A stretch of 64,000 nt of DNA from Eubacterium limosum (GTDB lineage: Bacteria; Bacillota; Clostridia; Eubacteriales; Eubacteriaceae). The notes beneath the pieces are model-generated. The model ran no database searches. It worked only from the letters and a program-made list of their open reading frames with translations, and was not told the DNA's origin. The stretch spans positions 1,302,001 through 1,366,000 of the forward strand of contig NZ_CP019962.1 in the NCBI RefSeq assembly GCF_000807675.2, given 5' to 3'. A program made the position numbers and the translations under genes. Positions 32,860 to 53,235 of the stretch are shown piece after piece; position 1 is the first letter of the stretch, and the number at the start of each line of letters is the position of its first letter.

Positions 32860-33135
32860 ATGACAAATGAAGCTTTAGGTATGATTGAAACCAAAGGTCT
32901 TGTTGGCTGTATTGAAGCAGCTGATGCAATGGTTAAATCTGCAAATGTAGTATTAACAGGCTATGAAAAAATCGGTTCTGGTTTAGTAACCGTTATGGTT
33001 CGTGGCGATGTTGGTGCTGTAAAAGCAGCCGTAGACGCTGGCGCAGCTGCAGCTGACAAAGTAGGTCAGGTTGTTTCTGTACACGTTATCCCAAGACCAC
33101 ATCAAGATGTGGAAAAAATGTTACCTAGTTTTTAA
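32860..33135 (+). CDS. pduA: BMC-H shell protein, PduA/PduJ type
   Basis: A 91-residue single-domain BMC protein. It opens with [26 protein letters not shown] and contains the [18 protein letters not shown] helix and [14 protein letters not shown] tail of PduA/PduJ, which form hexagonal tiles whose central pore passes propanediol. PduA and PduJ cannot be separated here by eye. First gene of the operon, with a strong CAAGGAGGG site, consistent with the most abundant shell component. Confidence 0.93.
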
Positions 33136-33161
33136 TCTAAATTTAATGGAGGTGTAGATTA

Positions 33162-33947: not shown

Positions 33948-33989
33948 GAAGCAGTAGCGAAATAGTTATAGAAAAGAGGAGGAATGACT

Positions 33990-35648
33990 ATGAGATCAAA
34001 AAGATTTGAAGCGTTAGATGCTCGTCCGGTTAAAAAGGACGGTTTCGTAAAAGAATGGCCTGAAGTAGGTCTTATTGCAATGAATAACCCCGGAGATCCT
34101 ACTCCGAGCTTAAAAATTGAAAATGGCGTTATCGTAGAAATGGACGGTAAGGCAAGAGCAGAATTTGATATGCTCGATACCTTCATCGCTAACTACGGTA
34201 TCCGTACAGAAAAAGCACAGGAATACATGGCAATGGATTCTCTGGAAATTGCTCGTATGCTTTGTGATATCAACGTACCAAGAGCAACTGTTGTAGACAT
34301 TACTACTTCCATTACTCCTGCTAAAATTACCGAAGTTTTAGGTAACATGACAGTACTGGAAATGATGATGGCACAGACAAAAATGCGTGCACGCTTAATG
34401 CCTTCTAACCAGTGCCACGTTACCAACGTTAAAGATAACATGGTTCAGATCGCGTGTGACGCTGCTGAAGCTGCTATCCGTGGTTTCGACGAAATGGAAA
34501 CAACCGTTGGTATCGCTCGTTACGCTCCTTTCAACGCTTTAGCTATCATGGTTGGCGCAAATGTTGGCCGTCCTGGTATCTTAACACAGTGTGCTGTTGA
34601 AGAAGCTACCGAACTTGACTTAGGTATGAAGGGCTACACCGCTTATGCTGAAACTATTTCTGTATATGGTACAGAACCAGTATTCATGGATGGCGATGAT
34701 ACTCCTTACTCTAAAGCTTTCTTAGCATCCTGCTACGCTTCCCGTGGTCTTAAGATGCGTTTTACATCCGGTTCCGGTTCTGAAGTACAGATGGGTTATG
34801 CCGAAGGTAAATCCATGTTATACTTAGAAGCCCGCTGCTTATATGTAACAAAAGGCGCTGGCGTTCAGGGTACTCAGAATGGTTCCGTATCTTGTATCGG
34901 TGTACCTGCTGGTGTACCTGGCGGTATCCGTGAAGTATTGGCTGAAAACTTATTAGCAGCATGTTTAGACCTTGAATGTGCTTCTTCTAATGACCAGACC
35001 TTCACCCACTCCGACCTTCGTAGAGTTGCTCGTTCATTAATGCAGATGGTACCAGGTACCGATTATATCTGTTCTGGTTACTCTTCTACACCAAACTACG
35101 ACAACATGTTCGCAGGTTCTAACTGGGATGCTGAAGACTATGATGACTGGAACGTAATCCAGCGTGACCTTAAGATCGACGCCGGCTTACAGCCTGCTGA
35201 TGAAGATACTGTTGTTGCTGCTCGTGCAAAAGCTGCTCGTGCTATGCAGGTTATCTTCCGTGAATTAGGCTTACCAGAAATCACCGATGAAGAAGTTGAA
35301 GCTGGTACATACGCTAACGGTTCTCAGGATATGCCTGACCGTGACGTAGTTGCTGACCTGAAAGCTGCTGAAGACTTAGTAAACCGCGCAACGGCTGTTG
35401 ACTTCGTTAAAGCATTAGACCGCGGCGGCATGAGAGATGTTGCTGAATCTATCTTCAACATTCAGTTACAGAAATGTGCTGGTGACTACTTACACACCGC
35501 TTCTATGATCACATCTGACTGGGAAGTTGTTTCTGCAGTTAACTACATGAACGACTACCATGGTCCAATGACTGGTTATGTAATCAGTGATGAAAGATGG
35601 AAAGAAATTCAGGATATTCCATGGGCTGTTGACCCAGCCAGCATTTAA
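33990..35648 (+). CDS. pduC: B12-dependent propanediol/glycerol dehydratase large subunit
   Basis: 552 residues, the catalytic TIM-barrel subunit that converts 1,2-propanediol to propionaldehyde using adenosylcobalamin. It starts MRSKRFEALDARPVKKDGFVKEWPE, the family's N-terminus, and has the conserved QMGYAEGKSMLYLE and GVQGTQNGSVSCIG segments. An ATG six bases earlier (33984) sits on top of the AGAGGAGG site, so 33990 is the start. Order pduC-D-E matches known operons. Glycerol as an alternative substrate cannot be excluded. Confidence 0.95.
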   Translation: MRSKRFEALDARPVKKDGFVKEWPEVGLIAMNNPGDPTPSLKIENGVIVEMDGKARAEFDMLDTFIANYGIRTEKAQEYMAMDSLEIARMLCDINVPRATVVDITTSITPAKITEVLGNMTVLEMMMAQTKMRARLMPSNQCHVTNVKDNMVQIACDAAEAAIRGFDEMETTVGIARYAPFNALAIMVGANVGRPGILTQCAVEEATELDLGMKGYTAYAETISVYGTEPVFMDGDDTPYSKAFLASCYASRGLKMRFTSGSGSEVQMGYAEGKSMLYLEARCLYVTKGAGVQGTQNGSVSCIGVPAGVPGGIREVLAENLLAACLDLECASSNDQTFTHSDLRRVARSLMQMVPGTDYICSGYSSTPNYDNMFAGSNWDAEDYDDWNVIQRDLKIDAGLQPADEDTVVAARAKAARAMQVIFRELGLPEITDEEVEAGTYANGSQDMPDRDVVADLKAAEDLVNRATAVDFVKALDRGGMRDVAESIFNIQLQKCAGDYLHTASMITSDWEVVSAVNYMNDYHGPMTGYVISDERWKEIQDIPWAVDPASI

Positions 35649-35666
35649 GGAAAGGGGTGTAGTAGA

Positions 35667-36338
35667 ATGGCTATTAATGAACAAATGTTAAAAAGTATCA
35701 TCGAAGATGTTTTAAATGAAATGAGCGGCGCTGCTCCTGCATGCGATGCTGCTCCTGCTGCTCCGGCTGCTTCTGCCGCTGCTGCTGCGGGTTCTGTTGA
35801 ATTAACTCCAGTAGGGGATGTTCAGCAGGGTGTTGCTGCTGACGAAGTTCTGATTGGTTTAGCTCCAGCTTTTGCTGAATTCCAGACAGAAAATATTGTT
35901 GGCGTACCTCATGATAAAATCTTAAAAGAAATTATTGCCGGTATCGAAGAAGAAGGTTTAAAAGCTCGTGTTATCAAAGTATACAGAAGCTCCGACGTTG
36001 CTGTATGCGGACATGACGCTGCTGAACTGAGTGGTTCTGGCGTTGCTGTTGGCTTACAGTCAAAAGGCACCTGCTTAATCCACCAGAAAGATTTACCACA
36101 GTTATCTAACTTGGAATTATTCTCTCAGGCTCCTTTGATCGATTTAGACACCTATCGTGCCATCGGTAAAAATGCTGCTAAATATGCTAAAGGCGAAAGC
36201 CCGGCTCCAGTTCCGGTTCGTAATGACCAGATGGCTCGTCCTGCTTATCAGGCTAAAGCTGCTCTGTTACATATTAAAGAAACAGAACATGTTGTGCCAG
36301 GTAAAAAACCTGTAGAAATGAAAGTTACATTCAAATAG
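35667..36338 (+). CDS. pduD: Diol dehydratase medium subunit
   Basis: 223 residues. Residues 1-20 ([20 protein letters not shown]) form an amphipathic encapsulation-type helix, then an Ala/Pro-rich linker to about 45, then the subunit fold ([26 protein letters not shown]... [35 protein letters not shown]). It contacts the lower side of the cobalamin cofactor. The same length as enteric PduD. Confidence 0.94.
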
Positions 36339-36350
36339 GAGGTGGATAGA

Positions 36351-36860
36351 ATGACTCAAGAACAAATGTTAGAACAGATCGTTAAACAAGTTATGGCGTC
36401 TATGTCAGCTGCACCAGCTGAAGCACCTTCTTGTGCTTGTGGCGACAAAGTTACAAAAGATGATTACCCAATCGGTGATAAGAGACCAGAATTAATTATC
36501 TCTGCTACTGGCAAACAGTACAAAGAATTAACACTGGATAAATTATTAGCTGGTGAATTAACCGCTGAAGATTTAAGAATCAGACCAGAAACTCTGGAAT
36601 TACAGGCTCAGGTAGCTGAATCTGTACATCGTGATGCATTCGCAGGCAACTTAAGAAGAGCTGCTGAATTGATCGCTGTTCCAGATGCTCGTTTACTTGA
36701 AATCTACAATGCACTGAGACCTTACAAATCTACTAAAGATGAACTGTTAGCTATCTCAGAAGAACTGAAAAACCAGTACAATGCACCTATCTCTGCAGCT
36801 TTAGTAGCAGAAGCCGCTGAAGTTTACTACGTAAGAAAGAGATCTAAAGAATTTAAGTAA
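36351..36860 (+). CDS. pduE: Diol dehydratase small subunit
   Basis: 169 residues. The N-terminal helix MTQEQMLEQIVKQVMASMS is again encapsulation-like, followed by a linker with a CAC dipeptide-flanked cysteine pair and the conserved DYPIGDKRPELI start of the small-subunit fold. ATG at 36351 is preferred to the GTG at 36342 because AGGAGGTGG ends at 36344. Confidence 0.93.
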   Translation: MTQEQMLEQIVKQVMASMSAAPAEAPSCACGDKVTKDDYPIGDKRPELIISATGKQYKELTLDKLLAGELTAEDLRIRPETLELQAQVAESVHRDAFAGNLRRAAELIAVPDARLLEIYNALRPYKSTKDELLAISEELKNQYNAPISAALVAEAAEVYYVRKRSKEFK

Positions 36861-36898
36861 GCACAACATAATCCAGGAAATTGTTTGGAGGAAGCGAT

Positions 36899-38713
36899 AT
36901 GATTATTGCAGGTATTGATATTGGTAATGCAAGTACCGAAACGGCGCTTGCCCGATATACTGACGGAAAACCTGAGTTCCTGAGCAGTGGCATCGTTAGT
37001 ACCACTGGTATGAAAGGGACACGTCAAAACATTCATGGAGTGTTCGCCTCTCTAAAACAAGCCCTAGAAAAAGCAAACTTAACTGTTGATAATGTTGATT
37101 TAATTAGAATCAATGAAGCCGCTCCAGTTATTGGTGATGTGGCTATGGAAACTATTACTGAGACAATTATTACAGAATCAACCATGATCGGTCACAATCC
37201 TTCCACTCCGGGAGGATTGGGGACCGGCGTTGGTGTTACTGTAAACATAAGGGAAATTAATAGTGTTAAAAAAGGCGACTCGGTTATTGTCATCATTCCG
37301 CGTGAAGTTGACTTTGAGAGTTCCTCCAGCATTATTAATCAGGCCGTTGCAAACGGCATTTTTGTAAATGGTGCCATTGTCCAGCGTGATGATGGCGTTT
37401 TAATTAATAACCGTTTGAACAAACAAATCCCGATTGTCGATGAAGTTTCTTTAATTGATAAGGTTCCGCTTGGAATGCGTGCTGCTGTAGAAGTAGCAGC
37501 TCCAGGAGCCGTCGTTGAACAATTATCCAATCCTTATGGGATTGCAACAGTCTTCGATTTATCCTCCGATGAAACCAAACAAGTCGTTCCTGTATCAAGA
37601 GCCTTGATCGGGAACCGTTCTGCCGTTGTCATCAAAACGCCAGCAGGGGACGTTAAAGAACGTAAAATCCCAGCCGGCAAAATCATTATCCAGGGCGAAC
37701 ATAAAAAAGCCGAAGTTAATGTTGATGAAGGCGCGGAAATCATCATGGATGCAATCCGAAGCGTTGCGCCTGTCGAAGATGTTAAGGGGGAAGCTGGAAC
37801 AAACGCCGGCGGTATGCTCGAAAAGGTAAGACAGGTTATGTCTAATCTGACTGAACAGAATCCCCAGAACATTAAAATCCAGGATTTATTAGCTGTTGAC
37901 ACCTTTGTGCCTCAGAGCGTAAAGGGCGGTATGGCCGACGAATTTTCCATGGAAAATGCCGTTGGTATCGCCGCGATGGTTAAGGCTGATAAATTACAGA
38001 TGAACATGATTGCTGAAGTTCTTGAAAAAGAACTGAATGTTAAGGTTGAAGTCGGCGGTGTTGAAGCTGACATGGCAATCCGTGGTGCGTTAACCACCCC
38101 GGGTAGCAATAGACCACTTGCGATCATTGACATGGGCGCAGGATCGACAGATGCTGCTATTATTAACAGGGCTGGCGAAATACATTCTATTCATCTGGCA
38201 GGCGCTGGTAACATGGTCACCATGCTTATCGGTTCAGAACTTGGTTTCGAGGACTCAGGCCTGGCAGAAGATATTAAAAAATACCCTTTAGCAAAGGTAG
38301 AAAGCTTATTCCATATTCGTCATGAAGATGGAACTGTTCAATTTTTTGATGAACCATTAGATCCGAGATCATTTGCACGTGTCGTTATTCTGACACCAAG
38401 CGGCATGGTTCCGATTCCAGGAAACCATTCGCTGGAAAGAATCCGTACTGTGCGCCGTGAAGCAAAAACCAAAGTTTTTGTTGTCAACGCGATTCGTTCA
38501 TTGGAACGCGTCAGCCCAACCGGTAATGTAAGAGACATCGAGTTTGTTACATTGGTCGGCGGCTCTGCTCTCGACTTTGAGATTCCGCAGCTGGTAACGG
38601 ATGCTTTGTCAAAATTCAGTATTGTAGCAGGTAGAGCAAATATAAGAAGTGTAGAAGGTCCAAGAAACGCAGTTGCCACCGGCTTAGTACTTGCGTACGG
38701 CGAAGGTGAATAA
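36899..38713 (+). CDS. pduG: Diol dehydratase reactivase large subunit
   Basis: 604 residues. An ATP-dependent, Hsp70-like chaperone that ejects damaged cobalamin from the dehydratase. It begins MIIAGIDIGNASTETALAR (phosphate-1 loop) and contains IIDMGAGSTDAAI (phosphate-2 loop) and a C-terminal VGGSALDFEIP adenosine-type motif. ATG at 36899 follows GGAGGAAGCGAT; a TTG at 36881 overlaps the ribosome binding site. pduH starts one base after its stop. Confidence 0.94.
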   Translation: MIIAGIDIGNASTETALARYTDGKPEFLSSGIVSTTGMKGTRQNIHGVFASLKQALEKANLTVDNVDLIRINEAAPVIGDVAMETITETIITESTMIGHNPSTPGGLGTGVGVTVNIREINSVKKGDSVIVIIPREVDFESSSSIINQAVANGIFVNGAIVQRDDGVLINNRLNKQIPIVDEVSLIDKVPLGMRAAVEVAAPGAVVEQLSNPYGIATVFDLSSDETKQVVPVSRALIGNRSAVVIKTPAGDVKERKIPAGKIIIQGEHKKAEVNVDEGAEIIMDAIRSVAPVEDVKGEAGTNAGGMLEKVRQVMSNLTEQNPQNIKIQDLLAVDTFVPQSVKGGMADEFSMENAVGIAAMVKADKLQMNMIAEVLEKELNVKVEVGGVEADMAIRGALTTPGSNRPLAIIDMGAGSTDAAIINRAGEIHSIHLAGAGNMVTMLIGSELGFEDSGLAEDIKKYPLAKVESLFHIRHEDGTVQFFDEPLDPRSFARVVILTPSGMVPIPGNHSLERIRTVRREAKTKVFVVNAIRSLERVSPTGNVRDIEFVTLVGGSALDFEIPQLVTDALSKFSIVAGRANIRSVEGPRNAVATGLVLAYGEGE

Positions 38714-38714
38714 C

Positions 38715-39080
38715 ATGAATGTGAACTTCGAAGCTCCAAAACCAGAAATAAAGGTTTATTACAATAAAAACTCTGTCAATAAAAGCATTGTCACACAGGT
38801 TTTATTAGGCATCGAAGAAGAAGGTTTACCTTATTCTCTTGAAGAAAAGGACAACAATGACGGCGTTGAGCTTGCTTACAAAGCGGCTGAGGTCTCGCAT
38901 CTCGGTGTGGGCATCGGCATCGGCGACAGTATTGTTTTACATTACATTAAGTTGAAAGAAAATGCTCCGCTTTTTTCTGTCCGTCTTCAGGATGATGAGA
39001 ATACCCTCAGAGCCATTGGCGCAAATGCGGCCAGACTTGTAAAACGAATGCCTTTTAAAGACATTGGCAGTGCTAAATAG
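38715..39080 (+). CDS. pduH: Diol dehydratase reactivase small subunit
   Basis: 121 residues, swivelling partner of PduG, structurally related to the dehydratase medium subunit. Shows the GIEEEGLPY and GVGIGIGDSIVLHY segments of the family. ATG 38715 lies just after the pduG stop, with GAAGGTGA as the ribosome binding site. Confidence 0.9.
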   Translation: MNVNFEAPKPEIKVYYNKNSVNKSIVTQVLLGIEEEGLPYSLEEKDNNDGVELAYKAAEVSHLGVGIGIGDSIVLHYIKLKENAPLFSVRLQDDENTLRAIGANAARLVKRMPFKDIGSAK

Positions 39081-39095
39081 TGAGGGGGGATTTAT

Positions 39096-39542
39096 TTGAG
39101 ACAAGCATTAGGGTTGATTGAAGCGATTGGGCTGGCAACAGCCATTGAAGCCACTGATGCTGCTGTGAAATCAGCAAATGTCGAGTTGCTTGGTTTGGAA
39201 TCCGCTAAAGGCGACGGTATGCATACCATTAAAGTCGTTGGCGATGTGGGTGCGGTTAAAGCTGCTGTTGAAGCGGCAACGGCTGCCTGCGCCAAAGGAC
39301 GCGGTGTCTTTAGTACAAAAGTGATTGCGCGGCCGGCCGATGGGCTTGGGCCGATGATCTATAATAACCAGACAATGGGCTTTGATCCGGAACAGGATCG
39401 TGATCGGATGGAACTGGATTCTTATTGGGTTTTCAATAAGTATGACCAGAAAAAACCGACAACTGCAGTGGAAAAAACACTGACGCCTATTTCTGAGGAA
39501 AAAGATGAAGCAGTCGAAGAACAACCGACAGAAGAAGAATAA
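39096..39542 (+). CDS. pduK: BMC-H shell protein with acidic C-terminal extension (PduK-like)
   Basis: 148 residues, TTG start after GAGGGGGG. Residues 1-88 are a BMC domain (ALGLIEAIGLATAIEATDAAVKSANV). The remaining 60 form a hydrophilic extension ending in a glutamate-rich tail. Enteric PduK also has a C-terminal extension, but that one carries a cysteine cluster; none is visible here, so the symbol is by position and layout. Confidence 0.75.
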   Translation: MRQALGLIEAIGLATAIEATDAAVKSANVELLGLESAKGDGMHTIKVVGDVGAVKAAVEAATAACAKGRGVFSTKVIARPADGLGPMIYNNQTMGFDPEQDRDRMELDSYWVFNKYDQKKPTTAVEKTLTPISEEKDEAVEEQPTEEE

Positions 39543-39590
39543 TCCTTGCGAACAGCAGATCCATAGATCTTAAAGAAAAGGTGTAAGCGA

Positions 39591-40250
39591 ATGAATGATA
39601 TTGAAAGAAAAGTGATTGAAGAGATTGTCATCAACACTGTCAAGAAATTAATGGCAGAAAAAGACGCTCCAAATCGCGTGCCCTTGGGCGTTTCCAATAA
39701 ACATCTTCACTTGACACAGGAACATGTCGAAATATTATTCGGCGAAGGACATCAGCTTACAAATTTAAAAGATGTTAAACAGCCTGGTCAGTTTGCATGT
39801 GAAGAATGTGTAAGAATCATTGGACCCAAAGGTGAATTTCCTAAAGTTAGAGTTTTAGGACCAGCAAGAAATGAAACCCAGATTGAACTTTCAATGACCG
39901 ATGCACGAACCTTGGGTGTTAATGTACCAATTCGTGAGTCTGGCAAACTGGAAGGAACACCGGGACTTATTCTGGAAGGGCCGTGCGGCCGTGTTGAACT
40001 GGATCATGGTGCCATTGCGGCACTGCGTCACATTCACATGACTCCGGACATTGCAGAACAGCTGGGACTGAAGGATGGCGATTGTGTAGGTGTAGAGAGC
40101 AGTGGACTGCGTCCTACGCTGTTCCGAGATGTGTTGGTACGTGTGTCTCCGAAATATGCTTATGAAATGCATATCGACACTGATGAAGCCAACGCTGCCG
40201 GACTTAAAAATAATGACATTTTAAAAATTGTTAAAAAGCAGGAGAAATAA
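39591..40250 (+). CDS. pduL: Phosphate propanoyltransferase
   Basis: 219 residues. Converts propionyl-CoA and phosphate to propionyl-phosphate, recycling CoA inside the compartment. The N-terminal helix (MNDIERKVIEEIVINTVKKLM) is an encapsulation peptide. The two PduL domains carry the zinc-binding histidines in SNKHLHLT and RHIHMTP. The stop overlaps the next start (TAATG). Confidence 0.95.
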   Translation: MNDIERKVIEEIVINTVKKLMAEKDAPNRVPLGVSNKHLHLTQEHVEILFGEGHQLTNLKDVKQPGQFACEECVRIIGPKGEFPKVRVLGPARNETQIELSMTDARTLGVNVPIRESGKLEGTPGLILEGPCGRVELDHGAIAALRHIHMTPDIAEQLGLKDGDCVGVESSGLRPTLFRDVLVRVSPKYAYEMHIDTDEANAAGLKNNDILKIVKKQEK

Positions 40251-41074
40251 TGGACTGGAAGAGCGGTAATGACACGATACTAGAGTTTAATGAACTGATC
40301 AAAGCCAAAAGAGCAAACCCTTATCAGGGAAACCTGAAGGTTGGCGTCGACCTTGGTACAGCCAATATCGTTGTAGCTGTTGTTGACGAAAATAACCGTC
40401 CGGTAGCAGGCGCTACCCAGGGCGCTCACGTTGTAAGAGACGGGATCGTCGTGGATTACCTCGGAGCGGTGAACATCGTCAGAACATTGAAATCCGAAGT
40501 CGAAAAAATTATTGGTGTTGATTTAACGTATGCCAATGCCGCAACCGCTATCCCACCTGGAATTTTGGAAGGAAATACTAAGATTATTTCCAATGTTGTG
40601 GATTCAGCTGATTTTACTGTTACCAATGTGGTCGACGAACCGACGGCGGCCGCAACCGTTTTGGGAATCCAGAACGGTGCTGTTGTAGACGTTGGGGGTG
40701 GTACCACCGGTATCAGTATTTTGAAAAATGGTGAAGTCATTTTTACAGCCGATGAGGCAACTGGCGGGACGCATATGAGTCTTGTCATCGCAGGCGCTTA
40801 TCATATCAGCTTTGAAGAAGCAGAAGAAATGAAAAAGCATGAAGACCAGCGGAAGATATTTCCAGTCATTAAACCAGTTGTGGAAAAGATGGCGTCAATT
40901 GTCCATCGTTTTATCCAGGGCTATGATGTCGACACCATTTATGTGGTCGGCGGGGCCTGTGTTTTTGATAAATTTGAACAGGTTTTTGAAAAAGAAATCG
41001 GCATCAAAACAGTAAAACCCGTAGAACCTTTGTTGGTAACCCCTTTAGGGATAGCCTTTAATTGTCAAAGGTAA
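40250..41074 (+). CDS. eutJ: EutJ-like Hsp70-fold protein
   Basis: 274 residues. Actin/Hsp70-type ATPase fold: VGVDLGTANIVVAVVD (phosphate 1), VVDEPTAAATVLG, VVDVGGGTTGISIL (phosphate 2) and VVGGACVFDKF. It matches EutJ of ethanolamine BMC operons, proposed to be a chaperone; in this Pdu-type operon it may assist enzyme assembly or encapsulation. Overlaps pduL by one base. Confidence 0.88.
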   Translation: MDWKSGNDTILEFNELIKAKRANPYQGNLKVGVDLGTANIVVAVVDENNRPVAGATQGAHVVRDGIVVDYLGAVNIVRTLKSEVEKIIGVDLTYANAATAIPPGILEGNTKIISNVVDSADFTVTNVVDEPTAAATVLGIQNGAVVDVGGGTTGISILKNGEVIFTADEATGGTHMSLVIAGAYHISFEEAEEMKKHEDQRKIFPVIKPVVEKMASIVHRFIQGYDVDTIYVVGGACVFDKFEQVFEKEIGIKTVKPVEPLLVTPLGIAFNCQR

Positions 41075-41092
41075 GGAATGTGGTGATATAAT

Positions 41093-41929
41093 TTGGACTT
41101 AAAAGATTTGATTAACAGTGAAGCCTTTATGGATGTTTTTATCCAGAAGGTTGTCGAAGAAGTCATCAAAAGAATAAAGAATAGACCTAAAACGGCGCTG
41201 GTTGTTTTTTCCGGTGCGGCTATCGGGTTTAAACAGGCAATGGATTCACTGGTCAAGTTAAAAAATGATGGTTGGCAATTAAAGGTTTTCCTTTCGGATG
41301 AGGCGATGCACGTGTTCACTCCGAGTTATATACAGGAAACCTTAGGTTTAGACACCATTTATAACAGTGATTCCAAGGTAGCCCAAAAAGAACTTTACGG
41401 TGAAGTTGATCAAATCATTATTGCAGCGACAACTGTTAATACCGCAGCAAAAGTTGCTCACGGTATTTGTGATAATGAAATGCTCACCCTCATCAACCAC
41501 GGAATCATGGCCGGAACACCAGTTGTTTGTGCGATCAATGGCGCCTGTCCGGATGACAGCGTCAGAGCTCAGCTGGGAATGGGAAAATCCCCGCAAGGCT
41601 ACCGTGAGTTACTGAGAAATAACCTCAAAGCTCTAAAAAGCTTTGGAATCAAGCTGGTCAGCTCAGATGAGCTGTATGATGGCTGTGTTGGAAAGGACAG
41701 CTGCAAAGACGCACTTCAGAGCAGCGCCTGTGCAGTGTCTTCGCAGACATCTAAAGAATCCGATCCCTTTGAACCGGATGATGGCATGATTGCAAAACGT
41801 ATCATCAGCCGCGGCGATGTATTATTACACCGCAACAGCAAAGTGATCAAAGTGCCTGCGGACGCTATCATTACAGAATATGCTAAGGAAGCAATCGCTA
41901 CCCTTGGTCTTCGTGTAGAAAAGATATAG
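41093..41929 (+). CDS. BMC-associated flavoprotein-domain protein (possible PduM-like C-terminus)
   Basis: 278 residues, TTG start. Residues 1-30 form another amphipathic helix (LINSEAFMDVFIQKVVEEVIKR). Residues about 32-190 resemble the flavoprotein (FMN-binding, Pad/Dfp-like) fold: TALVVFSGAAIGF, IIIAATTVNTAAKV, INHGIMAGTPVVCAINGACP. A linker with several cysteines is followed by a 40-residue C-terminal domain (RIISRGDVLLHR...VPADAIITEYAKEAIATLGLRV) of a type seen in BMC accessory proteins. No reaction is assigned; a redox or assembly role is inferred from neighbours. Confidence 0.65.
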   Translation: MDLKDLINSEAFMDVFIQKVVEEVIKRIKNRPKTALVVFSGAAIGFKQAMDSLVKLKNDGWQLKVFLSDEAMHVFTPSYIQETLGLDTIYNSDSKVAQKELYGEVDQIIIAATTVNTAAKVAHGICDNEMLTLINHGIMAGTPVVCAINGACPDDSVRAQLGMGKSPQGYRELLRNNLKALKSFGIKLVSSDELYDGCVGKDSCKDALQSSACAVSSQTSKESDPFEPDDGMIAKRIISRGDVLLHRNSKVIKVPADAIITEYAKEAIATLGLRVEKI

Positions 41930-41940
41930 TAGGTGATTGA

Positions 41941-42219
41941 ATGCATTTAGCAAAAGTAGTTGGTAATGTGGTTTCAACTCAGAAGGATTCAAATCTTGTG
42001 GGTTGCAAACTCTTAATTATCAAAAAAATCAATGAAAACGGGGAGTTTGAAAAATACTCCAGCCAGTCCACTGCCATCGCGGTCGACTCTGTCGGCGCTG
42101 GCATTGGTGAAACCGTCATTGTAACGACCGGTAGTACGGCCCGTTATGTTTATGGTGATAAGCTGGCACCGCTTGATATGACTATCGTTGGAATTGTTGA
42201 CGAAATTCAAATTGTTTAG
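41941..42219 (+). CDS. pduN: BMC-P vertex protein (EutN/CcmL type)
   Basis: 92 residues. The pentameric vertex protein that closes the shell: HLAKVVGNVVSTQKDSNLVGCKLLIIKKI at the N-terminus, then VDSVGAGIGETVIVTTGSTAR and IVGIVDEIQI at the end, the standard pattern of the family. Confidence 0.95.
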   Translation: MHLAKVVGNVVSTQKDSNLVGCKLLIIKKINENGEFEKYSSQSTAIAVDSVGAGIGETVIVTTGSTARYVYGDKLAPLDMTIVGIVDEIQIV

Positions 42220-42231
42220 TGAGGTAGAAAT

Positions 42232-43239
42232 ATGCCAAATGTCTATACAAGAGGCGGTGACAAAGGTGAAACCGGTTTGTTCGGCGGTAACCGCACGCCT
42301 AAAGATGATATTCGGGTAGAAGCTTACGGTACAATGGATGAAGCAAATTCAGCCATTGGCCTGGCCTATTCTTTATCTGAAGACAATGACATCCGCGAAA
42401 TCCTCCACCATTTACAAGAAAGAATTTTCGTTTTAGGTGCGGAACTCGCCAGTGATGAAAAGGGGAAGGCAATGCTGAAGGATGGGATTTCCCAGGCAGA
42501 CATTGACTTTATGGAAGAAAAACTCGACTATTACCTTTCCGTTATCGGCCCGCAAAAATCGTTTATTGTACCAGGGAAAAACCCTGTATCCTCAGCTTTG
42601 CATCTGGCCCGTACAGTTGTACGGCGCGGCGAAAGAAGAATTGTGGAATATACCCACAAGGATCCGGATGTAAGACCGGAGCTGGTGAAATTTGCCAACC
42701 GTCTTTCCGATCTGCTTTTCGTTCTCGCAAGAACTGAAGAATACAACGAAATGGTGAAAGAAGTCGTCAGACGAGTCGTTGAAAAAATAAAAATGGCTGA
42801 AGCGCCTTCAGAAGAAGCTCCTGAGGAAGAGAAAAAAAAAGACTTTTCACTTCTGACAACTGCTAAGAGAATGGGAGCAGCAGCAAGGGTTAAGGCAGAA
42901 AAAATGGGTGTGCCTATTGTTTTTTCCGTTGTTGATGCAGGTGGTAATTTAACGTATTTTGAAAGAATGGAAGATTCCCTGCTCGCCAGTATGGATATTT
43001 CAGTTAACAAGGCTTATACAGCCAATGCGTTGAAAATGTCTACCGATAAGGTTACCGATCTGGCAAAAGAAGATGGAGCACTCTTTGGAATTCAATTTAC
43101 TAATGAAGGCCGCATTGTGACCTTCGGTGGTGGTTATCCACTCATTGTTGAGGGAAAAGTTGTCGGTGGTATCGGCGTTAGCGGCGGTACAGCAGACCAG
43201 GATATGGCCATTGCACAAAGCGCATTAGCTATTTTATAA
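42232..43239 (+). CDS. pduO: ATP:cob(I)alamin adenosyltransferase fused to a GlcG/HbpS domain
   Basis: 335 residues. The N-terminal PduO-type adenosyltransferase (1 to about 180) has YTRGGDKGETGLFGG and VRRGERRIVEY, and makes adenosylcobalamin for the dehydratase. After an acidic linker (about 185-205), the C-terminal 130 residues form a GlcG/HbpS (DUF336) domain (AARVKAEKMGVPIVFSVVDAGGNL...GGIGVSGGTADQD), which binds haem or corrinoids in other proteins. The same two-domain layout as enteric PduO. Confidence 0.95.
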   Translation: MPNVYTRGGDKGETGLFGGNRTPKDDIRVEAYGTMDEANSAIGLAYSLSEDNDIREILHHLQERIFVLGAELASDEKGKAMLKDGISQADIDFMEEKLDYYLSVIGPQKSFIVPGKNPVSSALHLARTVVRRGERRIVEYTHKDPDVRPELVKFANRLSDLLFVLARTEEYNEMVKEVVRRVVEKIKMAEAPSEEAPEEEKKKDFSLLTTAKRMGAAARVKAEKMGVPIVFSVVDAGGNLTYFERMEDSLLASMDISVNKAYTANALKMSTDKVTDLAKEDGALFGIQFTNEGRIVTFGGGYPLIVEGKVVGGIGVSGGTADQDMAIAQSALAIL

Positions 43240-43278
43240 AAGAGAAGATTTAATAGAGGAATCCAGGAGGAAATCTGT

Positions 43279-44688
43279 ATGAATATTGATACAACAGGTA
43301 TTGAATATATTGTAAAAAAGGTAATGGATCAGATCGACTATGCTGAAGAAACCGGAGCTCCGGTAGTAGACGGCAAAGACGGCGTTTTCCAGACCATGGA
43401 CGCTGCAATTGAAGCTGCTGCAGTTGCCCAGAAAGAGTACATGAAAAAACCATTGGCACTGCGTCGTCAGATGATTGCTGCAATGCGTGAAATCATGCTC
43501 AAAAAAGAAAATGTTGAAACAATCTGCGCTATGGTTGTTGAAGAATCTGGTATGGGTAACTATGAACATAAGTTGGCCAAACACCGTCTTGCAACAACTG
43601 GTACACCAGGCGTTGAAGATTTATTGACAGAAGCATGGGCTGGTGATGACGGCTGTACTTTACTTGAGTTGTCACCATTCGGCGTGATCGGCGCGATTAC
43701 ACCGACCACAAACCCGAACGAAACCATTGTTAATAACAGTATTGGTATGTTAGCTGCCGGTAATGCGGTTGTTTTCTCACCCCATCCAAAGGCATTAAAG
43801 ACAAGCTTCTTATGTATTAAATTATTAAATGAAGCCATTGTCTCTGTCGGTGGTCCGAGAAACTTAATCGTAACCTGTGCTAACCCGACAATTGAAGCTG
43901 CTAACGAAATGATGGTTCATCCTAAAATTAGAATGTTAGTTGCAACAGGTGGTCCTGGTGTTGTTAAAGCGGTTCTGTCCAGTGGTAAAAAAGCCATTGG
44001 CGCCGGCGCTGGTAACCCACCGGCATTGGTTGACGAAACTGCTGATATCGAAAAAGCAGCAAAAGATATTATCGACGGCTGTTCTTTCGACAATAATCTG
44101 CCATGTATTGCAGAAAAAGAAGTCGTTGTTGTCGATCAGGTAGCAGACTATCTGATTTTCAACATGAAGAAAAACGGCGCATATGAAATCACAGATAAAA
44201 AAGCCATTGACGCTTTAGCCGATCTGGTTTGTCCTGAAGGCCGTCTGAGCCGTGACTTTGTTGGTAAATCTGCTAAATACATCGCAGCGGCAGCTGGCCT
44301 GGATGTTCCTGAAGACACACGCGTGTTAATCTGTGAAACTTCTAAAGATCATCTGTTGGCTGTAGAAGAACTGATGATGCCGATTCTTCCAATCGTTCGT
44401 GTTGCTAACGTTGATGAAGGTATCGATGTTGCTGTTGAATTAGAACATGGAAACAGACACACCGCTATCATGCATTCCAAAAATGTAGATAAATTAACAG
44501 AAATGGCTAAGAGAATCCAGACGACCATTTTCGTTAAAAATGGTCCATCCTACGCTGGTATTGGCTTTGGTGGTGAAGGTTATCCGACATTCACGATTGC
44601 AGGTCCGACCGGTGAAGGCTTAACATCTGCTAAATCCTTCGCAAGAAGAAGAAGATGTGTGCTCGTTGGGGGATTCGATATTAAATAA
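43279..44688 (+). CDS. pduP: CoA-acylating propionaldehyde dehydrogenase
   Basis: 469 residues. Oxidises propionaldehyde with NAD+ and CoA to propionyl-CoA. The N-terminal targeting helix (MNIDTTGIEYIVKKVMDQIDY) is followed by the aldehyde dehydrogenase fold, with the catalytic C276 in NLPCIAEKE and the NAD-site glycine-rich ATGGPGVVKAVLSSG. GGAGGAAA precedes the ATG. Confidence 0.95.
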   Translation: MNIDTTGIEYIVKKVMDQIDYAEETGAPVVDGKDGVFQTMDAAIEAAAVAQKEYMKKPLALRRQMIAAMREIMLKKENVETICAMVVEESGMGNYEHKLAKHRLATTGTPGVEDLLTEAWAGDDGCTLLELSPFGVIGAITPTTNPNETIVNNSIGMLAAGNAVVFSPHPKALKTSFLCIKLLNEAIVSVGGPRNLIVTCANPTIEAANEMMVHPKIRMLVATGGPGVVKAVLSSGKKAIGAGAGNPPALVDETADIEKAAKDIIDGCSFDNNLPCIAEKEVVVVDQVADYLIFNMKKNGAYEITDKKAIDALADLVCPEGRLSRDFVGKSAKYIAAAAGLDVPEDTRVLICETSKDHLLAVEELMMPILPIVRVANVDEGIDVAVELEHGNRHTAIMHSKNVDKLTEMAKRIQTTIFVKNGPSYAGIGFGGEGYPTFTIAGPTGEGLTSAKSFARRRRCVLVGGFDIK

Positions 44689-44708
44689 CAATAACAGGGG
44701 TGTTGCTC

Positions 44709-46034
44709 ATGAGCACAAATTTAGTTGAAATAGTCAAAAGCGCTGGTATTATTGGTGCCGGCGGGGCTGGCTTCCCAACCCATGTGAAAATCGACGCTGA
44801 AGTTGATACAGTTATTGTCAACGGTGCTGAATGTGAGCCTTTGTTAAGAGTTGACCAACAATTAATGGCCGAGAGAGCCCACCACATGCTGGTGGCTCTT
44901 CAGGCTGTTATGGATCATACTAAGGCAAAGGCAGGCATTGTCGGACTTAAAAAGAAATATGTCCCGGCCATTGGCGCTTTAAGACAGGACTTACCAAATT
45001 TTCCAAAAATCGACCTTCACATTATGAATAATTTCTATCCTGCCGGTGATGAACAAACACTGGTATATGAAACAACAGGGAGAATTGTTCCAGAGGGTGG
45101 AATTCCATTAAATGTTGGAACTTTAGTCATAAATGTAGAGACACTTCTCAATATTTATGATATAATGAACGAGGACAAGCCCGTAGTAGATAAATATATT
45201 ACTGTTACGGGAGCAGTCCGCAATAAAATCACGACAAAGGTTCCACTTGGAATTACTGTTCGTGAAGCACTTGAGCTGGCTGGCGGAACAACCATTTCCG
45301 ATTTTGTCATTATCAATGGTGGACCAATGATGGGGAAAATTGTCGATATCGACTCCTACGTCACAAAGACTACAAAGGGCTTTATTGTTTTACCGAGCGA
45401 TCATCCATTGATCGAATCAAAGACAAGAAGCATCCAGGATACGATAAAATTAGCCGGAATGGCGTGTATGCAGTGTAGTTTATGTACAGAAGTTTGTCCG
45501 AGACACAGTCTGGGACATAACCTTGAACCACACAAGCTTATGCGAATCGCAGCCTATGGCTCAACTTGTGATACGACCACTCAAGCTACAAATGCTTTCT
45601 TATGCTGTGAATGTGGCTTATGTCAATATGCGTGCGTTATGGATCTCCAGCCTTGGAAGTTCAATATCGCACTCAAGCGGGAATTAGGCAGCAAAGGCAT
45701 CAAAAACCCACATCACAACAAACCTGAACAGGCTGATCCTTTCAGATCGGCAAAACAGTTTAACGTACATCGTTTAATTTCTCGTCTGGGTCTGGATGAA
45801 TATGATCAACCAGCTCCGATGGTCGATTGCGGCAAACAGTTTACTGAAGTAACCATTCAGCTGGCACAGCACATTGGTGCACCTGCTCAGCCGGTTGTCA
45901 GTGTAGGGGATGTTGTTGAAAAGGGAACCCTGATCGGAGAAATCCCGGAAGGAAGCCTTGGCGCCCGTATTTTCGCAAGTATCGACGGTAAAGTAACTGC
46001 CGTCGAAGATGGTAAAATTACCATCCGGTCCTAA
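44709..46034 (+). CDS. pduS: RnfC-like cobalamin reductase/electron-transfer protein
   Basis: 441 residues. A flavin and iron-sulfur protein of the PduS family, thought to reduce cobalamin for PduO or to move electrons across the shell with PduT. GGAGFPTHVK at the N-terminus belongs to the FMN/NADH-binding RnfC-like domain. Two [4Fe-4S] motifs are present: C253-x2-C256-x2-C259-x3-C263 and C299-x2-C302-x2-C305-x3-C309. ATG 44709 lies eight bases from AGGGG; an earlier GTG at 44700 overlaps that site. Confidence 0.93.
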   Translation: MSTNLVEIVKSAGIIGAGGAGFPTHVKIDAEVDTVIVNGAECEPLLRVDQQLMAERAHHMLVALQAVMDHTKAKAGIVGLKKKYVPAIGALRQDLPNFPKIDLHIMNNFYPAGDEQTLVYETTGRIVPEGGIPLNVGTLVINVETLLNIYDIMNEDKPVVDKYITVTGAVRNKITTKVPLGITVREALELAGGTTISDFVIINGGPMMGKIVDIDSYVTKTTKGFIVLPSDHPLIESKTRSIQDTIKLAGMACMQCSLCTEVCPRHSLGHNLEPHKLMRIAAYGSTCDTTTQATNAFLCCECGLCQYACVMDLQPWKFNIALKRELGSKGIKNPHHNKPEQADPFRSAKQFNVHRLISRLGLDEYDQPAPMVDCGKQFTEVTIQLAQHIGAPAQPVVSVGDVVEKGTLIGEIPEGSLGARIFASIDGKVTAVEDGKITIRS

Positions 46035-46057
46035 ATAATTTAATAAGGGGGATAATT

Positions 46058-46999
46058 ATGGACTTTACAATGTTAATTACCGCGTTTGGCGGTGGTTTAT
46101 TAGCTGCTGCTATCGGTGGTGTTCCTTCATTCGTATTTACAGGTTTAACTGTAATTGCTGCTATTTTTGGCGGAGAAGCTGGTGCTCCTATGATTGGTGC
46201 GTTAAGCTTTGGTTCTTTCTTTGGACCTCACGTAGCATTCGGTGGTGCTGTAGCCGGTGCTGCATACGCTAAGACTAAAAACCTGTTAGACGACGGTCAG
46301 GATATCGTTACTCCATTATTCAAAACTGGAGACGCTGGTGTTCTGTTAGTCGGTGGTGTATTTGGTATTATTGGTTTCTTAATTCAGTACTTATTAGGTG
46401 CCGTTCTTGGCGGAATGGTATTCAGCTATGCAGGTTGGACCGATACTGTTGCTTTAACAGTATTCATTTCTGACATCTTAGTACGTTTGATCTTCACAAA
46501 ATCTGGTCTTACTGGTAAATATACTGGTACTGAAAAGAGAAAATACTTCCCAGAAGGCAAACGCTTAAGCTTCTTAATTATGGTAGGCTTAGGTATTGGT
46601 ATTGCTATTGGTGGCTTAGCTGCTACTTTAGGTCAGTTAGGCGTAGCTGGTTCTGATGAAGCTTTATACTTATTCAATAACATCGGTTCCATCGGTTTCG
46701 GTATCGCTGCTGTATCCCTGGCGTTCTTATGTATGGGTCTTCCTTTAGAAGGATACCACCACGTAATCCTGCCAGCAGGCACAACAGCTATGATCGTTTT
46801 CGCTGCTACATTAAATCCATTCTTAGCAATTTTAGGTGGCGCTATCATGGGTATTATTACCTCTGTATGGGGCGAAGTAATGGCATTGACATTCAATAGC
46901 TATGCTGATTCTCATATTGACCCTCCAGCAGCTACTATCTGGGTATGGCAGTTAGTTAACTTTAGCCTGTTAATGATGTTATTACCATCAGTTCTTTAA
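46058..46999 (+). CDS. Polytopic membrane protein of unknown function within the BMC operon
   Basis: 313 residues with about eight to nine glycine- and alanine-rich hydrophobic segments (for example ITAFGGGLLAAAIGGVPSFVFTGL at the start and LVNFSLLMMLLPSVL at the end). A single longer hydrophilic loop (KSGLTGKYTGTEKRKYFPEGKR) lies near residue 150-170. I do not recognise the family; it is not an aquaporin-type PduF. Placed between pduS and pduT with a GGGGG-type site, and of the same codon style, it is probably a substrate permease or a membrane anchor for electron transfer. Confidence 0.7.
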   Translation: MDFTMLITAFGGGLLAAAIGGVPSFVFTGLTVIAAIFGGEAGAPMIGALSFGSFFGPHVAFGGAVAGAAYAKTKNLLDDGQDIVTPLFKTGDAGVLLVGGVFGIIGFLIQYLLGAVLGGMVFSYAGWTDTVALTVFISDILVRLIFTKSGLTGKYTGTEKRKYFPEGKRLSFLIMVGLGIGIAIGGLAATLGQLGVAGSDEALYLFNNIGSIGFGIAAVSLAFLCMGLPLEGYHHVILPAGTTAMIVFAATLNPFLAILGGAIMGIITSVWGEVMALTFNSYADSHIDPPAATIWVWQLVNFSLLMMLLPSVL

Positions 47000-47073
47000 T
47001 TTTTTAATCTAGTAATTATACGTAATTTGTAGCAAATAAGCATTGAATTCACAGTATAGAAAGAAGTGGTATT

Positions 47074-47622
47074 TTGAAAAAAGCAGTAGGTTTTATAGAA
47101 TTTAAGAGTATTCCTATCGGCATCGAAGCCACTGATGATATGCTGAAAGCCGGAAATGTTGATTTAATGATGGCCTCTCCTTTATGTCCCGGGAAATATG
47201 TTACCATAATTTCCGGTGACGTAGGGGCCGTTCAGGCATCAATTAGAAACGGTGAGCACATCGGTGGAATCTATGTACTCGAATCCCACGTTATTCCGAA
47301 CATTCATCCGGATGTATTGCCGGCTATGTTAGGTGCGGGAGAAATCGAAGATGTCAAAGCTCTTGGTATCGTTGAAACAATTAATGCAATCTCTTCAATT
47401 ATCGTTGGCGATGTGGCTGTTAAGGCTGCAAATGTCGAGTTGATTGAAATCAGAATAGCCAGAGGCTTGGGTGGTAAAGGTTTTGTATTATTGACTGGTG
47501 AAGTTGCTTCTGTTAAACAGGCGATCAAGGCCGCAGAAGCAGATATGCGCGATTTAGGTGTTATCACAAGTTACTCAGTAATCGCGTCACCGCATAAAGA
47601 TATTAAGAAAGTCATTTTCTAA
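47074..47622 (+). CDS. pduT: BMC-T shell protein PduT with iron-sulfur cysteine
   Basis: 182 residues, TTG start after AGAAGTGG, with two tandem BMC domains. C38 (SPLCPGKY) is at the position that, in known PduT, supplies three cysteines per trimer to a [4Fe-4S] cluster in the pore, an electron route across the shell probably used with PduS. Last gene of the operon; a 14-bp-stem terminator follows. Confidence 0.93.
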   Translation: MKKAVGFIEFKSIPIGIEATDDMLKAGNVDLMMASPLCPGKYVTIISGDVGAVQASIRNGEHIGGIYVLESHVIPNIHPDVLPAMLGAGEIEDVKALGIVETINAISSIIVGDVAVKAANVELIEIRIARGLGGKGFVLLTGEVASVKQAIKAAEADMRDLGVITSYSVIASPHKDIKKVIF

Positions 47623-47632: not shown

Positions 47633-47672
47633 ATGTTTAGATGGAAGCTATTCCATCTAAACATCTTTTCAT
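47633..47672 (+). terminator. Terminator of the BMC operon
   Basis: Perfect 14-bp stem, 47633-47646 with 47651-47664, 4-base loop, followed by CTTTTCAT. The T-tract is interrupted, so some read-through to the ParA-like gene is possible. Confidence 0.8.
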
Positions 47673-47750
47673 ATATAGACCTTTTATTTTTTATAAGCGA
47701 TTATATCACTATGATCTTTTATAAAAAATAAAAAGATAAGAGGGAACGAC

Positions 47751-48512
47751 GTGAAAACCATCAGTTTATTTAACTTAAAGGGCGGCTGCGGAAAAACCAC
47801 ATCTGTCATCAATCTCGGATATCTGCTGGGACAAAAGATAAAAGGAAAGGTGCTTTATATTGACTGCGATATGCAGAGCAACCTGACCAACTCTCTTATG
47901 GAGTACGATCTGGACCGTCCATGTATCTATCATTTATTTACTGACGAAAAAGAAGCCAAGGATGTTATTTATCAAGTAAGCGATAACATTGATATTATTC
48001 CTTCCAGTCTGCTGATGGCAACGATTGAGCCGCGTCTTGCAGGCATGTATGGACGCGAGTTTATTTTAAAACGTAAGCTTGAGGCAGTGGCAGACGATTA
48101 TGAATACTGCATCATTGACTGTTCGCCGTCATTCAGTATTGTAACCACCAACGCGCTTGTTGTCACCGATGATATTTTCATTCCAGTGCAAACCGAGTAT
48201 TATGCTGTGGATGGGGTGCATCTCTTGGAGGAAACTCTGGAATATATCAGCAAGTCACTGGGAATCAATAAGGATATTACCCTTCTTTTTGCAACACTTC
48301 ATGATGTACGTAATAATATTAACAATCTTCAATATGATAATTTAAAGGCGAGCTTTGGCGAGAAGTTTATGGATACCTATATCAGAAAAAATATCGCCCT
48401 GGTAGAGTCACCGATATTTAAGCAATCTATTTTTGAGTATAAACCAAAGTCAAATGGCGCTGAAGATTATCTGAATTTATTTAAAGAAATAGAATCCAAA
48501 GGGGGCTTTTAA
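47751..48512 (+). CDS. ParA/Soj-family P-loop ATPase next to the BMC operon
   Basis: 253 residues, GTG start after GAGGG. Deviant Walker A KGGCGKTT (residues 10-17) with the signature lysine K10, Walker A' YIDCDMQSNLT, Walker B CIIDCSPSF. ParA-like ATPases bind DNA or surfaces as ATP dimers and position cargo in response to a partner protein; McdA does this for carboxysomes. No parB gene or parS-like repeat is evident. The next gene starts directly at its stop codon, which makes that product the likely partner. Position after pduT suggests BMC positioning, but plasmid- or chromosome-type partition is an alternative. Confidence 0.88.
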   Translation: MKTISLFNLKGGCGKTTSVINLGYLLGQKIKGKVLYIDCDMQSNLTNSLMEYDLDRPCIYHLFTDEKEAKDVIYQVSDNIDIIPSSLLMATIEPRLAGMYGREFILKRKLEAVADDYEYCIIDCSPSFSIVTTNALVVTDDIFIPVQTEYYAVDGVHLLEETLEYISKSLGINKDITLLFATLHDVRNNINNLQYDNLKASFGEKFMDTYIRKNIALVESPIFKQSIFEYKPKSNGAEDYLNLFKEIESKGGF

Positions 48513-49493
48513 ATGGCTAGGAAAAGCAAATTAAAATCAGAATTAAAAACACATAATAGTACCATTAAGGAAAAAAACGAACTGGCTTCTAAGGTTTTGA
48601 CAGATGAAAATTCTACTAATACGGGGGATAACGAAGTGGGAATCATCGATGATTTGAAGAAAAAGATTATGGGGGAACCGAAGGAAGAAGAACAGGCCTC
48701 CGCTGCCAAGCTTGAAGCAGAAAAGCTGAAAGCCGAAGCCATTAAAAAGGAAAAAGAACTGGCCGAAAAGGCAGCTGAGGAAAAAGAAAAGAAAGCCGAA
48801 GTCGCTCGCCAGAAAGCCGAGGCTGAAGCCGCCGAAAAAGCGAAAAAAGAAGCCGAAGCTGCTGCCAAGGTAAAAGAAGCTGAAAAAAAGGCGAAAGAAG
48901 AGGCTGATCAGCAGGCCGCCAAGGAAACCGCTGAAAAGGAAAAGGCAGAAAAATTGGCGGAACAAAAAGCAAAAGAAGCCGAAGCTGCCAAGAAAAAAGC
49001 TGAGGCAGAGTTGAAGAAAAAACAAGAAGCTGAGGCCAAAGCGAAAGCTGAGGCAGAGGCCAAGAAAAAGGCAGAGGAAGAAGCGGCTGCGAAAGCAAAA
49101 GCGGCTGATGATGCCCAGGCAAAGGCCAGGGAAGAGGCTGAAGCTAAGAAAAAAGCCGAAGAAGCCGCCAAAGCAAAAGAAAAGGCAGAAGCGGAAGCTA
49201 AAAAGAAGGCTGAGAGAGAAGCGGCCACCAAAGCGAAAGCTGAAGAGGAAGCTAAGAAGAAAGCAGCTGCCGAAGCAGAAGCTAAGAAGAAGGCGGAAGT
49301 CGAAGAAAAACGGAAGGCCGAAGAAGCTAAGAAGAAAGAATTTGAACGTCAGGAAGCCATCCGTATCGAAAAAGAACGAAAAGAAAAAGAAGAGCAGGAA
49401 GCACGAAATAAAGTAGAACTTGAAGAAAAAATCAAGAAAGAGTTGAAAGAAAAAATGCAGAAGCTCCATGAGCTTCCTGATTATCTTCTCTAA
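48513..49493 (+). CDS. Lys/Glu/Ala-rich coiled-coil or single-helix protein, putative ParA partner
   Basis: 326 residues. A short basic, polar N-terminus (MARKSKLKSELKTHN; about 1-60), then about 240 residues made almost only of A, E, K with some Q, R and D in heptad-like blocks (AEAKKKAEEEA type), and a distinct C-terminal end (ELKEKMQKLHELPDYLL). No membrane segment, so it is not a TolA. The composition predicts a long rigid helix. ATG follows the ParA stop with no gap. By analogy with McdB or ParB-like partners it could link the ATPase to cargo, with the non-repetitive ends as binding sites. Function is not established. Confidence 0.7.
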   Translation: MARKSKLKSELKTHNSTIKEKNELASKVLTDENSTNTGDNEVGIIDDLKKKIMGEPKEEEQASAAKLEAEKLKAEAIKKEKELAEKAAEEKEKKAEVARQKAEAEAAEKAKKEAEAAAKVKEAEKKAKEEADQQAAKETAEKEKAEKLAEQKAKEAEAAKKKAEAELKKKQEAEAKAKAEAEAKKKAEEEAAAKAKAADDAQAKAREEAEAKKKAEEAAKAKEKAEAEAKKKAEREAATKAKAEEEAKKKAAAEAEAKKKAEVEEKRKAEEAKKKEFERQEAIRIEKERKEKEEQEARNKVELEEKIKKELKEKMQKLHELPDYLL

Positions 49494-50373: not shown

Positions 50374-50500
50374 GCAACAGCATTTGCGGCGGCAGTATGT
50401 TAAAATAGAATAGCATTAATTTACCCGTTCATAGGGTGGCGAATTTAAAGAATAAGTGATAAACTGGGGATATTATAAAAGAACATCGAGGAAAAAGATA

Positions 50501-52240: not shown

Positions 52241-52279
52241 AGAAAAATAAATGATGAGAAAAGACAAAAGGAGATTGAA

Positions 52280-53194: not shown

Positions 53195-53217
53195 CCCGTA
53201 TCGCGGCGATACCCTTT
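53193..53217. repeat. GTATCG palindrome inside the VWA-MoxR-VWA operon
   Basis: Core GTATCG-CGG-CGATAC (53198-53212) with non-pairing CCC flanks and no T-tract, overlapping the MoxR stop. It is probably not a terminator, but could form an intercistronic hairpin. Confidence 0.55.
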
Positions 53218-53235
53218 GAGAAAGGAGGGATGACA

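Follow-up and report, generated by a model that had tools for sequence, protein, structure and literature searches.

A ParA-type ATPase and a partner protein beside the Pdu microcompartment operon of Eubacterium limosum: a candidate McdAB-like positioning system

Organization of the locus

The window, that is, the whole stretch of DNA that was analysed, covers 64 kb of the Eubacterium limosum genome, which is 4.42 Mb long and consists of a single contig. It contains a Pdu microcompartment operon that is followed by a pair of genes encoding a ParA-type ATPase and a partner protein. The features of this region are the following.

32860..47622, + strand: Pdu microcompartment operon from pduA to pduT, whose compartment is the putative cargo of the pair (BMC, EutN_CcmL, dehydratase, reactivase and other Pfam matches)
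47074..47622, + strand: pduT, gene for a trimeric-type shell protein directly 5′ of the pair (two Pfam BMC matches; the best NCBIfam match is eut_PduT, below cut-off)
47633..47664, + strand: terminator-like hairpin in the gap between pduT and the ParA gene, with a 14-bp perfect stem
47682..47733, + strand: second inverted repeat, AT-rich, 5′ of the ParA gene
47751..48512, + strand: ParA-type ATPase gene, GTG start, 253 aa
47778..47801, + strand: deviant Walker A motif KGGCGKTT, ParA residues 10-17
48513..49493, + strand: partner gene, product K/E/A-rich, 326 aa
48513..48578, + strand: basic N-terminal segment of the partner, residues 1-22, proposed ParA contact by analogy with McdB (PMC12204374)
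49470..49490, + strand: C-terminal tail of the partner, ELPDYLL, residues 320-326, proposed shell docking motif by analogy with McdB (PMC11321042)
49501..49530, + strand: terminator-like hairpin 3′ of the pair

The arrangement agrees with an original prediction, made from this DNA alone, which had described a ParA with a deviant Walker A motif about 130 bp 3′ of pduT, a partner gene in contact with its stop codon, and a terminator belonging to the pair. In effect, KGGCGKTT is found in the ORF of 253 aa, the gap measures 128 nt, the partner ATG at position 48513 directly follows the ParA stop codon, and the pair is followed by its own terminator-like hairpin. The other hairpin, at 47633-47664, was absent from that account. 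Because it separates pduT from the ParA gene, a plain operon of the pdu genes and the pair is disfavoured, which suggests that the pair is not simply cotranscribed with pdu. No RNA family was found in the window at gathering score.

The Pdu operon holds two further genes of note. At 40250-41071 there is an actin-like protein with matches to PilM_2, FtsA and MreB; actin-like proteins have been named as another possible positioning factor (PMC8262871). A 313-aa protein that looks membrane-like by eye is encoded at 46058-46999, between pduS and pduT. It has no Pfam or NCBIfam match, and the ORF is absent from that place in L040, L041, L046 and L047, for example.

The ATPase

The window ParA matches AAA_31 in Pfam at 2e-48 and has a fold of the ParA class. 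It carries the signature lysine and the Walker A′ and B aspartates of ParA/MinD ATPases and of the ParA/Soj class, and these ATPase motifs are intact and conserved. In profile comparisons it scores 156 bits with the ParA 8ray, 143 with Soj and 74 with McdA, the McdA reference being the solved Cyanothece protein. Thus, with this reference, the protein is nearer to Soj and plasmid ParA than to McdA. The lysine missing from McdA is dealt with in PMC6328274.

Distribution and linkage to pduT

A close ParA ortholog is present in 16 of the 40 genomes sampled from the family Eubacteriaceae, spread over 8 genera, at 55-100% identity; the ortholog of Eubacterium callanderi (L055) is 100% identical to the window protein. 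The best ParA match in the other 24 is 41%, or there is none at 1e-40. The order sample of 67 genomes adds none to these 16, which represent 8 of its 26 genera. At the level of the class, 6 of 391 genomes have a match at 1e-52, namely five of the family and G046, whose ParA is 41% identical and is followed by a ParB-like gene. Twenty-seven loci emerged when public genome contigs were scanned: 12 from Eubacteriaceae (55-100%), one from a Vallitalea MAG (63% identical to the window ParA) and 14 others, of which twelve are at 33% identity or less and two are short matches at 39 and 47%. No match to the Pdu proteins of the window was found in the available stretches of these 14 loci.

Wherever it occurs in the family, in the window as in the 15 other genomes, the ParA gene lies directly 3′ of pduT. 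Accordingly, a ParA-type gene stands beside microcompartment genes, as in McdAB-like systems, in 16 of 16 cases in the family, and it does not in Vallitalea. Because this order recurs in 15 other genomes, the pair is more than a product of chance; since the 16 genomes share ancestry, the linkage does not amount to 16 independent events. The genes 3′ of the pair vary, with dnaX in genera g3, g4 and g9, others in g1, g5, g7 and g8, and a contig end in g6.

A Pdu-type pduT, defined by an E value of 1e-55 or better, is found in 33 of the 40 family genomes, 16 of which have ParA and 17 of which do not, the latter all belonging to genus g2. Thus, Pdu compartments as a whole can do without the ParA system. 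Conversely, ParA is found in none of the 7 family genomes that lack a Pdu-type pduT; of all 40, 37 encode BMC domains. Across the class sample, 86 of 391 genomes have a PduT-like protein. A ParA profile search around such genes outside the family but within the same class returned no ParA in 80 control loci (76 genomes, 1.295 Mb; G294, G156 and weaker second matches left out), and the same profile recovered 6 of 6 ParA loci that served as a positive control.

The original prediction had called for a survey of the family and class for co-occurrence of the pair with BMC genes, and had regarded itself as endangered if the pair turned up mostly in plasmids or in BMC-free genomes, or beside parS-like sites. 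On sequence grounds the survey came out in its favour, with ParA next to pduT throughout the family and missing where a Pdu-type pduT is missing. Among the 5000 plasmid matches listed, none reaches 60% identity to ParA and the best is 40.5%; the same is true of 144 phage records, where the best listed match is 40.1%. A scan of viral contigs gave one locus, at 26% identity. On these figures, a plasmid or phage origin is not supported. A search of the 64-kb window for parS-like sites, with up to 2 mismatches to the consensus allowed, found none.

These results also bear on the idea that the pair is left over from a ParAB partition system, either of a plasmid or of the chromosome. The ATPase does belong to the Soj/plasmid ParA sequence class, and one tail-bearing partner of a second lineage, described below, has a ParB_N domain. 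However, the window partner has no match to ParB or to any other domain, the window has no parS-like site within the same 2 mismatches, plasmids and phages offer no match of at least 60% among those listed, and the ParA motifs are intact and conserved. With neither a ParB match in the window partner nor a parS-like site in the 64-kb window, the pair falls outside the ParABS class, and a remnant origin is highly improbable.

Conserved ends and variable middle of the partner

K, E and A make up 73% of the window partner and 86% of its residues 61-290. There is a single Tyr, which is the third residue from the end and thus lies in the C-terminal tail, and there is no Trp or Cys. No match was found at 0.001 in Pfam, NCBIfam or PHROGs. 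Long ORFs lie antisense to the partner gene; they are probably by-products of the partner composition.

The 16 ParA-bearing family genomes include 14 with a complete partner, one whose partner is truncated where the contig stops and one whose partner would lie beyond that point; setting the window aside, the partner is complete in 13 of 15. The complete family partners are 117 to 650 aa long. The description of the partner as nearly all A, E and K with non-repetitive ends holds for the window protein, but composition is not the conserved part among its relatives, because the middle is not K/E/A-rich in 2 of the 14 (G039 and G022, at 0.33 and 0.36). The middle ranges from almost none to about 600 residues, and both ends are kept.

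At the N-terminus, K4, L7, K8, L11 and K19 are invariant among 8 aligned partners, and the first 22 residues have a net charge of +1 to +10 in 15 partners, a basic start like that of McdB. At the extreme C-terminus, the tail [DE][LM]Px[YW]L[LM] is present in 15 of 15 complete ParA-linked partners (14 from the family and the one from Vallitalea), with Tyr as the aromatic residue in 14 and Trp in 1. All 15 therefore have an aromatic residue within the last five positions and an acidic residue within five of it, as expected for McdB-like proteins. The C-terminal Trp that is invariant in carboxysome McdB is not shared, as the window has Tyr and Trp occurs in 1 of the 15 ParA-linked partners. No ORF out of 10,897 (30 aa or longer) in the 80 control loci ends in this tail, even in a looser form. 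In the window itself, the partner matches the pattern, and one 44-aa antisense ORF fits only the looser form.

Loci that keep the partner and lack the ATPase

Genus g2, which we infer to be Acetobacterium-like and name accordingly, shows what becomes of the locus when ParA is missing. Sixteen of its 17 pduT loci were examined (G006 was left out). None has ParA, and all 16 have a homologous partner directly 3′ of pduT, after a gap of 126-146 nt. Hence the partner is tied to the compartment genes of the Pdu locus, and not to the ATPase alone. Residue 7, which is L in the 8 aligned partners, is P in 14 of these proteins and T in 2; as the genus is one clade, this change counts as one event. The tails, 15 of which are complete while the sixteenth is cut by a contig end, follow [DE][LI]Px[HYF]L[LM]. 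The position of the aromatic residue is taken by His in 11 of the 15 and by Phe and Tyr in 2 each; the His of these 11 is not aromatic in the McdB sense. For A. woodii, a published study describes the cluster as ending with pduT, and its main text makes no mention of the locus tag that comes next (PMC7593272).

A tree of PduS plus PduT, built with 16 ParA-bearing, 16 ParA-less and 7 outgroup rows, nests g2 inside the ParA-bearing loci (support 89/88), and for this reason loss of ParA in the Acetobacterium-like genus is favoured. An alternative tree in which all ParA-bearing loci form one clade is not rejected (p-AU 0.166). The region 3′ of pduT tells a compatible story. Among 31 gaps, comprising the 16 ParA-less ones and 15 of the 16 ParA-bearing ones (L035 was left out), 22 have two successive strong stems, in contrast to 0 of 40 plain base-shuffles of eight of the gaps. 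The AT-rich second repeat, with the core TTATAAAAAA, occurs in three ParA-bearing genera (g1, g4 and g6) as well as in the majority of g2 loci. Such a shared leader is consistent with the ParA gene having been removed, or inserted, behind it. As for the role of these repeats, they perhaps act in termination, attenuation or mRNA processing.

Since the partner can stand without ParA, it might be asked whether it is mainly a compartment-bound spacer, an anti-clumping brush or an assembly factor, with ParA tuning assembly, number or anchoring. Its retention right after pduT in 16 of 16 Acetobacterium-like loci would be expected in that case, as would a middle of such unequal length, from almost none up to some 600 residues, and in Salmonella the shell protein PduK stops Pdu compartments from clumping without ParA (PMC13052382). 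Nevertheless, ParA adjoins the partner wherever it is found in the family, the N-terminus of the partner is basic as in ParA partners, and the known ParA-type systems that have partners of this kind serve to position cargo (PMC10241942). A structural role of this kind thus seems unlikely.

A short form in Vallitalea

In the Vallitalea MAG, no compartment genes are near the pair, although two regions elsewhere in the genome contain them, one Pdu-type and the other, by reading of its ORFs, glycyl-radical-type. In the ParA tree, twelve family sequences form one branch (87/96), which Vallitalea joins next (87/87). Its partner is the following.

L059:10760-10906: Vallitalea partner, 48 aa, starting right at the ParA stop codon and ending NNNDLPFYLL

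At 48 aa, this protein keeps both ends and has nearly lost the middle. It is easily overlooked with ORF length cut-offs of 90 or 50 aa. Over the whole Vallitalea genome the tail pattern has 18 matches, one of which comes directly after the ParA gene, against 14 in a reversed control, so that the genome-wide pattern is weak by itself.

A second ParA lineage

L069, a 5-kb contig of a Lachnospiraceae MAG, encodes a ParA that is 30% identical, and the next gene codes for a short protein that ends in ELPIYLM. This partner, taken from its ATG start, has no basic segment at the beginning. The genome has 11 BMC-domain matches, with no compartment genes on the 5-kb contig itself. A class-level search with the L069 ParA gave G141 at 59% and G312 at 55%, followed by a gap to 37%. 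In G312 the product of the next gene (L239:10492-11115) ends in EMPTFLL and includes a ParB_N domain; within 900 nt 3′ of the G141 ParA there is no tail-bearing gene. Both genomes carry PduT-like proteins, but no match to the Pdu proteins of the window lies within about 10 kb of their ParA genes in either direction. The L069, G141 and G312 ParA form a long separate branch of the ParA tree (100/100). Among 28 weaker matches for which a locus was available (L210-L237), a ParB-like gene comes next in most, by eye, and no gene after ParA has the tail.

The tail might therefore be seen more broadly: [DE][LM]Px[YWF]L[LM] would be a modular address for clostridial shells used by at least two ParA lineages, and the Acetobacterium partner would have outlived its ATPase and organise compartments alone. 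This extension is tentative and, on balance, doubtful, as the general claim for the tail is weakened by G141, which has no tail gene, by the lack of Pdu neighbours and by the non-basic start of the L069 partner.

The same loci are relevant to the notion that the pair serves a different cargo, or a different purpose altogether, and sits beside pduT by inherited gene order only. The position of the Vallitalea pair away from compartment genes, the hairpins between pduT and the ParA gene and the shared ancestry of the family genomes all point that way. However, downstream neighbours changed among genera while pduT stayed, the Acetobacterium-like loci lost or lack ParA and keep the partner after pduT, and Vallitalea, L069, G141 and G312 all have compartment genes, compared with PduT-like proteins in 86 of 391 class genomes. 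An unrelated cargo is thus quite improbable.

A probable positioning system for Pdu compartments

A conserved, compartment-linked ParA pair is real. We consider it likely that this pair is an McdAB-like positioning system for Pdu microcompartments. The features on which this rests are observed ones, namely gene linkage, conserved ATPase motifs and partner ends, a variable middle and a genus that lacks ParA. For instance, the positioning role is favoured by the fact that ParA adjoins pduT in 16 of 16 genomes while the genes 3′ of the pair differ, and by the occurrence of the tail in 15 of 15 ParA-linked partners against 0 of 10,897 control ORFs. It is disfavoured by the location of the Vallitalea pair away from compartment genes, by the lack of ParA in 17 family genomes with a Pdu-type pduT, and by the finding that Salmonella Pdu compartments are unaffected by loss of ParA or MinD (PMC12866334). 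In that study, carboxysome McdAB had no effect on the Salmonella compartments either, and neither the ParA nor the MinD gene is part of the pdu locus. The McdAB-like distribution of Pdu compartments that had originally been proposed is supported as far as sequence tells; positioning itself, together with DNA binding, both partner contacts and compartment movement, is what we infer from it.

A possible course of events would be as follows. ParA would bind ATP, dimerise and coat the nucleoid, and the C-terminal tail of the partner, [DE][LM]Px[YW]L[LM], would attach the partner to the Pdu shell. The basic N-terminal helix of the partner would contact the ParA dimer, and this contact would stimulate ATP hydrolysis and lead to the local release of ParA. 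Compartments would then follow ParA gradients, space out and pass to both daughter cells. The long K/E/A middle would act as a spacer whose length hardly matters.

Relation to known systems

The pair resembles McdA/McdB in having a ParA-type ATPase and an adjacent low-complexity partner beside microcompartment genes, and in a partner with a basic N-terminus and a C-terminal aromatic residue that has acidic residues nearby. In McdB, the N-terminal 20 residues are treated as the ATPase contact (PMC12204374), charged N-termini of ParA partners are discussed in PMC10241942, and the C-terminal aromatic residue is needed for carboxysome docking (PMC11321042). By contrast, the compartment here is Pdu and not a carboxysome, the window ParA is nearer to 8ray and Soj than to Cyanothece McdA, the tail of window-type partners has Tyr and not Trp in 14 of 15, the middle is K/E/A-rich in most, and a window-type partner can persist without the ATPase. 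With Soj/Spo0J (ParABS), the pair shares the ParA fold, sequence class and ATPase motifs, but the window ParA is linked to pduT and not to a ParB gene, its partner has no ParB match, and the window has no parS-like site.

ParA has been described as an ancillary family of BMC loci (PMC4207490), and the placing and inheritance of non-carboxysome microcompartments are called unclear in a review that also reports McdAB-like systems, with a C-terminal aromatic residue, at several BMC operons (PMC8262871). Among the last five residues of putative McdB-like proteins from PDU and GRM loci there is a Y or F (PMC11321042), and mcdAB-like genes are found near EUT and PDU operons (PMC13052382). The general positioning idea, with McdAB-like genes at Pdu loci, is thus already in print as a prediction. 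The genes predicted at PDU, EUT and GRM loci in these three papers express the same idea and very likely belong to the same broad class. The text of these predictions that was compared gives no defined tail motif, partner-only genus, 48-residue form or second ParA lineage. The part of PMC8217296 that was covered does not mention McdA or positioning. A search of the available literature text found no paper on the ParA-partner pair or on McdB together with Eubacterium. The present analysis adds the tail with its control, the partner-only genus, the leader, the second lineage, the 48-residue form and the ranking of the window ParA against Soj and McdA.

As one family has this locus both with and without ParA, it lends itself to a compact genetic test. 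In addition, the tail is short enough to be removed or grafted, and the 48-residue partner is a natural minimal form. If the positioning role is true, a Soj-like ParA would have been recruited to an organelle apart from McdA, the tail could be a tag for steering engineered Pdu shells, and organelle inheritance would become testable outside carbon-fixing bacteria.

Other genes in the window

Farther 3′ of the pair, at 50456-55011, an AAA gene (52280-53194) with weak GvpN similarity lies between two similar CobT-type VWA genes; this AAA/CobT-type VWA gene group is also found in L035 and L036. Before it, at 50087-50353, there is a small secreted-looking protein with an NPNTG motif 5′ of a hydrophobic stretch, which we take to resemble a sortase substrate. 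At the other side of the window, 8658-13442 encodes a 1594-aa protein with eight Cna_B stretches, which is probably a surface protein.
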